From assembly GCA_019747905.1 (NCBI GenBank), contig JAIEQG010000022.1:1-64000 (forward strand): 64,000 bases of DNA, in the 5' to 3' direction. The notes beneath the pieces were generated by a model. It searched no databases. It was not told the origin of the DNA and saw only the letters and a program-made list of their open reading frames with translations. This document shows positions 19,012 to 26,156 of this stretch, piece after piece (positions within the stretch are counted from its first letter, which is position 1; each line of letters opens with the position of its first letter). The translations under genes and the position numbers were made by a program. Origin of the DNA: Burkholderiales bacterium (lineage in GTDB: Bacteria > Pseudomonadota > Gammaproteobacteria > Burkholderiales > Ga0077523).

Positions 19012-20463
19012 CTATCGCAACAGGGCCGCGGGCGTGGCGTAAGTTCCGCGAGCCATGATCGCGTCGCGCACGTCGATGCGTGGGGCGTCCGACTTCAACT
19101 CCACCTTGCCGCCAAGCGCCTCGAGTCCGATGTCGGCGTAGAGCTGCGCGAGATCGGGAAACGCCGTGGCGGCGACGTGGGCATCGTAGAGCCGGCGGAA
19201 CACGTCGGTACCCGACAATTCGTCGAACTTGTCGAAGACCTGGCGCGCGGTCCACTCCGGATTAGGATCGAGACAGCAGTCCGCGAACTGCGCGAGCACC
19301 GTGTCGAGGGACTGCCGGTTGTCGGAGCGGCTGCGCAGTTCCACGTCCGCGAGCAGGAGCATCGCCGCCCCCGACCAGTACACTCGCATGTAGCCGCCGT
19401 CGCGAAACATGCGCACCGTCGCCTGCTCCAGCGTCATCCCCTTGACGGCGGAATCCCGGCCGCGTTTGAACCCGGCGTGCATGCGTTGCCATGCTTCGTT
19501 CGGCGTGATTGCACCGCTACGCGCACGGGTGACGTTCTGATAGTAGGTGGCCATGCCTTCCGCCAGCCACGCATCGTGCGAAGTCACGTACGGTAGCAAC
19601 AGATGCGAAAGCTCGTGCGGCGCGGTCCAGTCCTCGATGTAGTCGCGCAGCGGCCGGCGCTGGTTCACGAAGAAGTGCGCGGCCGCCTGGCCCCCGCGCA
19701 GCACATAGGCCCAGGGCGTCGGCTCCTGGGCGCGCGCACCGGGCACCACGAGAATCTGCGGGCTTGCCACCGGAAACCGGCCATGCACGCCGGCCACGCT
19801 CATGGCGGCATCGTGGATCCAAGTACGCATCGCATCGACGTCCGCCGGCGGTGCACCATCGAGGATGGCAAGGCGCAGCACGGCCCCCGGCACTTCCACG
19901 GGAATCTCCTTGAACCAGCCGAAGGCCACGGCCGATGGCCGATCGAACTCCGCATGGCCGATCCGATAGGACGGCCACTCGCGTGCCGGTTCCACGGGAC
20001 GCCAGGGCGTCGACACCGCCAGCCCCTCGGGCAGCGCGAAACTCACCTCGATGTCCTCATCCGGCGCAAGCTGAGCCGGCCGCCAGAACCACAAACCCAC
20101 TTCGGTGAACAGGTCGCGCCCCACTCGCTTGGTGGTGTTACCCGAGAGGTCGTTCTTGGTGTAACCGCCGGCAAGGTTGACCGAGTACTCGATGCAACCA
20201 TCGTCGGCGATGCCCTTCAAGCGCATCTCGGTGCCGTTGGGCTGAAGCGGCTGGCGTCGCTCCATCACAGCCTTGCCCTCGACGAAGGCCGCGGGCGCAT
20301 CGAGCGACTCGGCCACGAGTTGCGCCGGCGGCCGTCCTGCGAAGCAAGCCTTCACCTGCATGCTGCGGATGTCGGGATCCACCGTGACCCGATACTGGTG
20401 GATACGCTGCGCCCACACCGGAACGGACGCTGTCATCACCAGCAGGAACGCGATGCTGCGCAA
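19012..20463 (-). CDS. Exported zinc metallopeptidase-like protein (gluzincin, M1/M61-like)
   Basis: About 480 residues. A signal peptide is evident (LRSIAFLLVMTASVPVWAQ), but no ATG precedes it, so TTG at 20463 is the best guess and the start is uncertain. The zinc motif HELSH (HEXXH) lies in WTAPHELSHLLLPY near the middle, and the third ligand is probably the glutamate in WLAEGMATYYQN, as in gluzincins. The N-terminal half is beta-rich like M61 glycyl-aminopeptidases. It probably acts in the periplasm on peptides. It lies downstream of metH on the same strand after about 200 bases. Confidence 0.75.
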   Translation of the reverse strand: MRSIAFLLVMTASVPVWAQRIHQYRVTVDPDIRSMQVKACFAGRPPAQLVAESLDAPAAFVEGKAVMERRQPLQPNGTEMRLKGIADDGCIEYSVNLAGGYTKNDLSGNTTKRVGRDLFTEVGLWFWRPAQLAPDEDIEVSFALPEGLAVSTPWRPVEPAREWPSYRIGHAEFDRPSAVAFGWFKEIPVEVPGAVLRLAILDGAPPADVDAMRTWIHDAAMSVAGVHGRFPVASPQILVVPGARAQEPTPWAYVLRGGQAAAHFFVNQRRPLRDYIEDWTAPHELSHLLLPYVTSHDAWLAEGMATYYQNVTRARSGAITPNEAWQRMHAGFKRGRDSAVKGMTLEQATVRMFRDGGYMRVYWSGAAMLLLADVELRSRSDNRQSLDTVLAQFADCCLDPNPEWTARQVFDKFDELSGTDVFRRLYDAHVAATAFPDLAQLYADIGLEALGGKVELKSDAPRIDVRDAIMARGTYATPAALLR

Positions 20464-20604
20464 AGGAAGCAAGTCGATCAAGGCTCGGAACGATGCGTGA
20501 GGATGCAACGCACCGATAGAGGACGATCGTCGTCCAAGGTTCCCGCAGCGCGCCGGATGCAGTTTCCGGCAGGCGCAACGTCGAAGCAAGCAGGCGCATG
20601 GCGC

Positions 20605-20630
20605 GCCTGGACGAACCGGTTTGTCCAGGC
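20605..20630 (-). terminator. Hairpin downstream of metH
   Basis: GCCTGGAC and GTCCAGGC form a perfect 8-bp stem around a 10-base loop. It lies between the metH stop and the peptidase gene. There is no T-run after it on the minus strand, so it may be only a 3'-end stabilising or weak termination hairpin. Confidence 0.35.
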
Positions 20631-20661
20631 CAGGGCCTGTTCAAACCAAGAACGGACCTGG

Positions 20662-24360
<3,699 letters not shown>

Positions 24361-24378
24361 GTTCGCCCTGTCAGAAAA

Positions 24379-24411
24379 CGAAAAACCCGGCCGCTGAAGG
24401 GGACCGGGTTT
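24379..24411 (-). terminator. Intrinsic terminator between SAM-II aptamer and metH
   Basis: On the minus strand AACCCGG and CCGGGTT form a 7-bp stem followed by TTTTTCG. It starts 6 bases after the end of the aptamer and ends about 20 bases before the metH start. Its loop contains CTTCAGCGG, complementary at 8 of 9 positions to CCGCTAAAG in the aptamer, allowing an alternative antiterminator pairing. Confidence 0.8.
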
Positions 24412-24416
24412 GCAGT

Positions 24417-24470
24417 CACTCTTTAGCGGAATTTGTAACGCGCCCGCAAGCTGTAGCTCAAATCGGCGCG
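24417..24470 (-). promoter_or_regulatory. SAM-II (SAM-alpha) riboswitch controlling metH
   Basis: On the minus strand the element has the SAM-II signature in order: P1 5' strand CGCGCC, then GATTTG, then GCTTGCGG, then P1 3' strand GGCGCG (perfect 6-bp P1), then TTACAAATT and CGCTAAAG. CTTGCGG can pair with CCGCTAAAG (GCGG with CCGC, CTT with AAG) to give the characteristic H-type pseudoknot that encloses S-adenosylmethionine. It precedes metH, an expected target, and a terminator hairpin follows immediately. High SAM should lower metH expression. Confidence 0.9.
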
Positions 24471-24535
24471 AATCGACCCGGAACGCTACCCGGCCGGCCC
24501 TCGCCTGTCAATTGCCACCGTCGGTGCGGTGTTCG

Positions 24536-24683: not shown

Positions 24684-26156
24684 CTAGGCCATGACGGCCC
24701 GGTCCCGCGCCCAGAAGCGCAGCGCCTCGATTTTCTCGGCGGCGATCACCGAGAGCGGGCGGGTCGCCTTGGCCTCGGCCAGGACGTGCGCGGTGCCGAG
24801 TGGCTCCCCGGCGGCGTGGGCGGCAAACAGCGCCGCGACGATAGCCTGCTCGATCTCGGCCCCGGAGAAGCCCGCCGTGGCGTCGCCCAATGCGGCGACG
24901 TCGAACGCTGCGGGGTCGAGCGACCGGCGTTTAAGGTGGATGCGCACCACGTCTGCGCGCGTCGCGGCATCGGGCAGATCCACGAAGAAGATCTCGTCGA
25001 TGCGCCCCTTGCGGATCAGTTCCGGCGGGAGCTGCTCGATCGCATTGGCGGTGGCCACGAGGAACACGCGACTGGTGCGTTCGGCCATCCAGGTGAGCAG
25101 CGTCCCGAGCATGCGGCGCGAGACGCCGCCTTCGCCGTTGTCGCCCGCTTCCTGGCTGATGCCCTTCTCGATCTCGTCGATCCACAGCACGCACGGAGCC
25201 ATGCGCTCCGCGCTGCGCAGCGCTTCGCGCAGATTGCGCTCGGTCTCGCCGATCCACTTGCTGTAGAGCACGCCGAAATCCAGTCGCATCAACGGCACGC
25301 GCCAGGCCCCCGCGACGGCCCGGGCGGCGAGACTCTTGCCTGAGCCCTGCACGCCGAGCAGCATGACGCCGCGGGGCGCCTCGAGACCTCTGAGCTCGCC
25401 GGTGAAGGCGTTGCGGCGCTGATCGAGCCAGCGCTTGAGATTGGCGAGACCGGCGACGTCGTCCCACTTCGCGACGTCCAGTTCGAGCGACAGGACGGCA
25501 TCGGCACCCATCGCCTCGTGTTTCTGCTTCAAGACGCGCGCGGTGTCTTCGATGGTGATGGCGCCATCGTCATAGATCGCCTGGCGCACCAGGCGGCGGG
25601 CATCGTCCTCGCTCATGCCGACCAGCAACTGAAGCAGCATGTCGAGCGCCTCCTGATGGCCCTGGACGCGCGCATCGTTCTTGAACTGCCAGTCGTCCAG
25701 TTCCGTTTTCACCAGGGCACGGATTGCAGCGAGATCCGGCATCGCCATCTGGAACCGCGCCGCCATGCGCGACAGATCGGCGGGCAGTTCGAGTCGCGGG
25801 CTCAGGAACACCAGGGTCTTCTGGCTGCGGCCGTGATCCTGCGCGATGGTCTTGAGATAGCGCTGATGCACCGGATCGTTCAGGAACGGATGGAAGTCCA
25901 CCAGCACGTACACGCCGTTCTGCGGCGTGCTGTGGATGTGGCGAAGCACATCGGGCGGGTCGCGTGTCTCGGGGAGGGAGTCCGGCCGGCTGCGGCGGCG
26001 CAGGCCCTCGGTGAGGGTCCAGACGAACAGCGGTCGATCCTCGAGGTTGGCGACGCGCTCGAGCAGCTCGAGTACGCGCAATTCCTCGAAGGATTCAACG
26101 ACCACCAGCGGAAACCGCGAACGCAGGATGACCTTGAGGTCGTGCTCGTCGTTCAT
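24684..26156 (-). CDS. AAA family ATPase, Ycf46-like
   Basis: 490 residues from ATG 26156 (MNDEHDLKVILRSRF). The N-terminal half (to about 225) resembles the Ycf46-specific region, with strand VYVLVDFHPFL. The C-terminal half is a single AAA domain with Walker A GVQGSGKSLA at about residues 268-277, Walker B VLWIDEIEKG, a sensor-1 segment VFLVATANAIEQLP and arginine-finger region RKGRIDEIFFVDLP. In cyanobacteria Ycf46 affects CO2 uptake and photosynthesis, but the role in heterotrophs is unknown. The gene stands alone. A FtsH- or Cdc48-type role is unlikely because no membrane segment or second AAA ring is present. Confidence 0.88.
   Translation of the reverse strand: MNDEHDLKVILRSRFPLVVVESFEELRVLELLERVANLEDRPLFVWTLTEGLRRRSRPDSLPETRDPPDVLRHIHSTPQNGVYVLVDFHPFLNDPVHQRYLKTIAQDHGRSQKTLVFLSPRLELPADLSRMAARFQMAMPDLAAIRALVKTELDDWQFKNDARVQGHQEALDMLLQLLVGMSEDDARRLVRQAIYDDGAITIEDTARVLKQKHEAMGADAVLSLELDVAKWDDVAGLANLKRWLDQRRNAFTGELRGLEAPRGVMLLGVQGSGKSLAARAVAGAWRVPLMRLDFGVLYSKWIGETERNLREALRSAERMAPCVLWIDEIEKGISQEAGDNGEGGVSRRMLGTLLTWMAERTSRVFLVATANAIEQLPPELIRKGRIDEIFFVDLPDAATRADVVRIHLKRRSLDPAAFDVAALGDATAGFSGAEIEQAIVAALFAAHAAGEPLGTAHVLAEAKATRPLSVIAAEKIEALRFWARDRAVMA

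Follow-up and report, generated by a model that had tools for sequence, protein, structure and literature searches.

The window analysed here is a 64 kb (64,000-nucleotide) stretch of DNA from a Burkholderiales bacterium. On its minus strand an open reading frame for an AAA-type ATPase (named by eye, ending at 24684) is followed in order by a promoter-like pair of elements, a SAM-II core, a terminator, a Shine-Dalgarno-like AGGGCG and metH. The metH product scores above the NCBIfam cut-offs, with 2168 bits for NF007024 and 1741 bits for TIGR02082. In the order of transcription, the features of the leader are:

24506..24511, minus strand: -35 promoter element TTGACA (from the sequence)
24483..24488, minus strand: -10-like element TAGCGT, 17 nt from the -35 and a weak match to TATAAT
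24421..24470, minus strand: SAM-II aptamer core (Rfam match 24402-24479; 75.6 bits with our model R1, whose training set includes this very sequence)
24465..24470, minus strand: P1 5' strand CGCGCC, pairing with 24439-24444 (Rfam match, nascent folds, sequence)
24464-24458, minus strand: conserved segment GATTTGA (from the sequence)
24446..24453, minus strand: L1 segment CAGCTTGC, conserved in 51 aligned beta-type aptamers; its role as 5' strand of pseudoknot P2 is taken from the known SAM-II fold
24439..24444, minus strand: P1 3' strand GGCGCG (Rfam match, nascent folds, sequence)
24421..24429, minus strand: CCGCTAAAG, in RNA CCGCUAAAG (CCGCUaAAG), proposed as P2 3' strand if SAM is bound and as antiterminator 5' strand if it is not (Rfam match, folds, enrichment, covariation)
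24413..24417, minus strand: linker GACUG, which in the predicted antiterminator pairs with the terminator 5' arm at CGGUC (24406-24402) (nascent minimum free energy structures)
24383..24411, minus strand: intrinsic terminator hairpin AAACCCGGUC...CCGGGUUU, directly after the aptamer (folds, sequence)
24391..24399, minus strand: CTTCAGCGG, in RNA CUUCAGCGG (CUUcAGCGG), predicted as the 3' strand of the antiterminator and lying in the loop and the inner 3' arm of the terminator (nascent folds, sequence)
24375..24385, minus strand: U-rich tract UUUUUCGUUUU, the first Us of which overlap the terminator 3' arm (from the sequence)
24364..24369, minus strand: Shine-Dalgarno-like AGGGCG (from the sequence)
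20662..24360, minus strand: metH, cobalamin-dependent methionine synthase, 1232 aa, TTG start at 24360 (NCBIfam)

The elements listed in a preliminary description of this DNA, namely P1, GATTTGA, CAGCTTGC, CCGCTAAAG, CTTCAGCGG and the U tract, are all present as named within 24379-24470 on the minus strand. A 1607-aa open frame (19603-24426, plus strand) runs antisense to metH and the riboswitch, and most likely reflects nothing more than GC-rich coding sequence.

The promoter-like pair TTGACA-N17-TAGCGT (24511-24483, minus strand) lies upstream of the SAM-II core, with a predicted transcription start at about 24477-24475. Its -10 element is kept as TAGCGT or TAGCTT in the closest relatives. 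Among 151 related loci TTGACA, allowing at most one mismatch, occurs upstream in 122, against 15 of 151 shuffles; it stands mostly 40-45 nt ahead of GATTTGA, and 101 of the loci have TAnnnT at the matching distance of 16-18 nt from it. A generic promoter scan of the region called nothing, the TAGCGT element included, a miss that is probably due to the weakness of this -10 and was not counted against the promoter.

Identification of the aptamer as SAM-II, already proposed from the sequence, was borne out by the Rfam covariance model SAM_alpha (RF00521), which matches 24479..24402 on the minus strand over its full length (model positions 1-79 of 79) with an E value of 5.8e-5. The score of 37.9 bits barely exceeds the gathering cut-off of 36, and this is the sole Rfam match at gathering level in the window. 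The P1 helix and the GATTTGA, GCTTGC and GCTAAAG segments are all present, and the leader sits upstream of a gene of methionine/SAM metabolism, as is expected from the gene context of SAM-II. The two P2 strands, L1 (GCUUGC) and 3' (GCUAAAG), are complementary, and both are near-invariant in the 51 aligned sequences, which leaves no covariation within P2 to score. The metH leader shares with the SAM-II riboswitches described by Corbino et al. (2005, PMC1273637) the P1 helix, the GATTTGA/GCTTGC/GCTAAAG segments and the P2 strand, and also a promoter close upstream, a terminator after many members and a downstream methionine gene. It differs from them in its beta-type consensus, GCGCC-GATTTGA-n-CAGCTTGC-GGGCGC-n-AAAT-n-GCTAAAG, which scores low in the Rfam model, and in its target, which is metH rather than metA, metX or metY.

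The preliminary description considered SAM-II to be unusually placed in this lineage and before metH, and this view is not upheld. At E <= 0.001 the Rfam model finds SAM-II in 137 of 300 genomes of the order, of which only 51 of 300 are over the cut-off. A beta-type model (R1), trained on 51 sequences that are mostly beta-type and come in part from this order, finds it in 232 of the 300, the lowest-scoring hits perhaps being false. With R1, SAM-II precedes metH in all 12 genomes of the same genus and at 8 of 27 other metH loci, the latter being the closest matches in a 100-genome sample, so that the arrangement extends to other families. Twenty of these other metH loci, scanned with Rfam, gave no riboswitch of any kind at gathering level, SAH included, and four of these 20 carry SAM-II by the beta-type model. 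The counts of 51 and 232 genomes show that the Rfam threshold misses most beta-type SAM-II members, which matters for how methionine regulation is annotated throughout a large order. The genome itself has two further SAM-II aptamers with terminators. One (G000:C98:14764-14705; L002, L240) is ahead of metZ, encoding O-succinylhomoserine sulfhydrylase; the other (G000:C90:18209-18043; L242) is directly followed by a SAM-V-like aptamer, GTTAATCAACAACTTGCAGGGCG...GCTGCTAAAGCG.

The preliminary description also stated that betaproteobacterial metH is often linked to SAH riboswitches. This background is right, since control of metH by the SAH riboswitch in Comamonadaceae is reported by Leyn et al. 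(2014, PMC4239095), but it does not make SAM-II in the metH leader odd. The SAH riboswitch (RF01057) thus resembles the present leader in regulating metH in that family; it differs in sensing SAH and, in this genome, in its position. An SAH riboswitch at the metH locus was rejected, as Rfam matches nothing in the window but SAM_alpha, and the only SAH match of the genome lies on another contig (C155), ahead of open reading frames that were identified by eye as ahcY and metF. Among 60 relatives, 51 carry SAH riboswitches.

The beta-type alignment also bears on an element published without a known ligand. Leyn et al. describe SAM_alpha as found only in Rhizobiales and Rhodobacterales, and report a new 'metXZ' element, presented separately from SAM_alpha, from beta-proteobacteria upstream of metX/metW or metZ. 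It is said to have six conserved regions, with a pseudoknot formed by regions 1/4 and 2/6, an alternative pairing of region 5 and a terminator behind it, and an antiterminator was speculated upon. Six blocks are conserved in our alignment of beta-type SAM-II (GCGCC, GATTTGA, CAGCTTGC, GGGCGC, AAAT and GCTAAAG) and allow the metXZ-type pairings, and beta-type SAM-II precedes metX and metZ, the latter in Nitrosospira and Methylophilales as in Leyn et al. The two agree in their six regions, pairing logic, metX/metZ targets and terminator when compared by description, and on this comparison metXZ very probably is SAM-II. It may have been missed as such since the Rfam scores of beta-type members lie close to the cut-off or below it. 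A search of open-access papers found none equating metXZ with SAM-II.

Terminators behind SAM-II aptamers have been noted before. Bordetella bronchiseptica is among the SAM-II carriers of Corbino et al. (2005), who noted that many members are followed by putative terminators, and Barrick and Breaker (2007, PMC2258182) recorded terminator-bearing SAM-II leaders in beta-proteobacteria. A 2024 review classes SAM-II with the switches that directly occlude the ribosome-binding site. Scheuer et al. (2022, PMC9373788) predict transcription termination for the metZ SAM-II of S. meliloti; that system is like the present one in its predicted terminator control upstream of a methionine gene, and differs in belonging to an alphaproteobacterium and in its metZ target. 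A 2026 covariation study of whole riboswitches dealt with fluoride, ZTP, lysine and TPP, and also with purine, SAM (RF00162) and glmS, RF00521 not being among them. The metH leader is a member of a known riboswitch class, and the useful parts of the present analysis are the covariation-backed antiterminator and the under-annotation of the class.

At the metH locus the terminator follows right after the aptamer, and CCGCUAAAG (24429-24421) can pair with CUUCAGCGG (24399-24391) at eight of nine positions, exactly as first described. The statement that CTTCAGCGG is the terminator loop holds for the most part, its final GG belonging also to the inner terminator 3' arm. A generic terminator scan of the locus, limited to loops of 8 nt, called no terminator; the miss is probably due to a loop longer than this and was not counted against the hairpin. 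In nascent folds that begin at 24479, the minimum free energy structure is the antiterminator as long as the RNA reaches no further than GCGGCCGGG with its 3' terminus inside that segment, and the fold flips to the terminator upon completion of the terminator 3' arm. The growing-transcript folds add a feature that the preliminary description did not have, a GACUG:CGGUC pairing that ties up the terminator 5' arm. A loop-only pairing, coexisting with the terminator as a pseudoknot, was set aside; the nascent fold ties up the 5' arm as well. At full length the terminator is slightly stabler than the antiterminator, by about 2.5 kcal/mol, which means that any switching would need to be kinetically driven. 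Were transcription to start at 24482, the 5' CCGG could pair with the terminator 3' arm, and the computed balance would then favour the antiterminator even at full length. RNAfold ignores both the P2 pseudoknot and kinetics, and these folds therefore show balanced alternatives rather than actual switching.

It is suggested here that the leader is a SAM-II riboswitch and shuts metH off by ending transcription early, which we regard as the best explanation and as highly likely. When SAM is bound, CCGCUAAAG would be locked in pseudoknot P2, leaving the hairpin AAACCCGGUC...CCGGGUUU to form, and RNA polymerase would stop at the U tract, short of metH. When SAM is absent, CCGCUAAAG would pair with CUUCAGCGG as soon as the latter is transcribed, and this pairing, together with GACUG:CGGUC, would constitute an antiterminator that allows transcription to continue into metH. 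The sequence and the comparison show the aptamer and the terminator, two alternative pairings whose computed energies are close to equal, and an antiterminator that is conserved and covaries among relatives; that the metH leader binds SAM, that transcription really terminates there and that the switch works in the OFF direction is what we infer.

The comparison drew on loci gathered with the Rfam model in relatives and with the exact beta-type pattern in named genomes. They gave 185 distinct related aptamers, 152 of them followed by a detectable terminator, and the interiors of 146 terminators were compared with four aptamer segments. After deduplication by loop similarity (n=39), which removes shared ancestry only in part, terminators contained the complement of the P2 3' strand with a mean of -10.26 kcal/mol against -7.96 in shuffles (sd 0.32, z -7.1), none of 200 shuffles being as good. 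The L1 strand was enriched in this set too (z -3.2), and the linker and GATTTG control segments showed no enrichment over shuffles. Within the metH group alone the P2 3' strand complement was again enriched, with 0 of 200 shuffles as good; this 'metH' cluster of 23 loci includes four that apparently encode a shorter, betaine-homocysteine methyltransferase-like protein (L058 by NCBIfam; L070, L125 and L147 judged by short closed open reading frames). When terminators were swapped between loci, pairing with the P2 3' strand became worse, only 6 of 5000 permutations being as good, and pairing with the control segments did not. Permuting only the variable base before GCUAAAG was worse in 5000 of 5000 cases overall and in 4999 of 5000 in the metH group; in metX leaders it had no effect. 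This base is mostly G or A and is thus not expected to pair in P2, so its covariation would be evidence for the antiterminator. Compensating examples are GCCGCU/AGCGGC, GCGGCU/AGCCGC, CCAGCU/AGCUGG and CGGCU/AGUCG. In 84% of loci the nascent folds contain a pairing between the P2 strand and the terminator, compared with 51% once the loops are shuffled; L025 and L107 gave no antiterminator in this test.

The earlier proposal that the P2 strand serves as antiterminator without SAM is therefore backed, at the computed and comparative level, by nascent folds, enrichment of complementarity and covariation, and the predicted antiterminator would be exclusive with both the predicted ligand-bound fold and the terminator. 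An eight-of-nine match between loop and P2 strand might arise by chance in GC-rich DNA, being met with in 6 of 2133 60-nt stretches of the window and, when the 60 nt downstream are shuffled, in 0.55% of cases. Such a match is rare, and it is conserved with compensating changes over many lineages; pure chance is a most implausible account and was rejected on the enrichment and covariation among relatives. It is also conceivable that a SAM-II aptamer is combined with a constitutive terminator of fixed rate, SAM acting on the promoter, RNA stability or translation. A precedent exists in S. meliloti metA, whose terminator was not predicted to be under riboswitch control (Scheuer et al.). However, a complement of the strand that SAM controls is present in the metH-leader terminator and covaries with it, and the aptamer is upstream of the terminator, some 60 nt from the metH start, and does not directly cover the start site. 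We consider this combination improbable.

Leaders differ by target gene, those of metZ and the metH group favouring the P2 3' strand and those of metX the L1 strand. Terminators of metX leaders, and of some metZ leaders, carry the complement of the other P2 strand, CAGCUUGC, as in the loop GCGCAAGCTG of L003, which suggests, at the sequence level, a second antiterminator design. That the metH antiterminator likewise forms through CAGCUUGC, with loops such as GCAAGCUG, is very unlikely: the L1-strand complement is enriched in metX-leader terminators (0 of 200 shuffles as good) but not in metH-group leaders (30 of 200), and GCAAGCUG is absent from the metH-leader terminator.

Riboswitch control of metH through the P2 3' strand may be one case of a wider arrangement. 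We think it quite likely, as a joint claim, that SAM-II of beta-proteobacteria and some relatives share a terminator mimicking a P2 strand, the strand clamped by SAM acting as antiterminator when free, that metXZ is SAM-II, and that most of the order has SAM-II while the Rfam cut-off reports a minority. If true, a published orphan element would fold into a known class, and the covarying antiterminator would give terminator-type SAM-II a concrete mechanism that can be tested by mutation.

Among the related loci, L058 and L070, from metagenome-assembled genomes labelled Acidimicrobiia, have SAM-II and a terminator before the betaine-homocysteine methyltransferase-like gene, and would lie outside Proteobacteria if these labels are right. 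In Bosea, Microvirga, Rhodoplanes and others (L052, L053, L055, L059, L064, L068, L095, L129 and L134) SAM-II precedes ABC-transporter-like open reading frames, mostly with no detectable terminator, and these are probably of the translational type.
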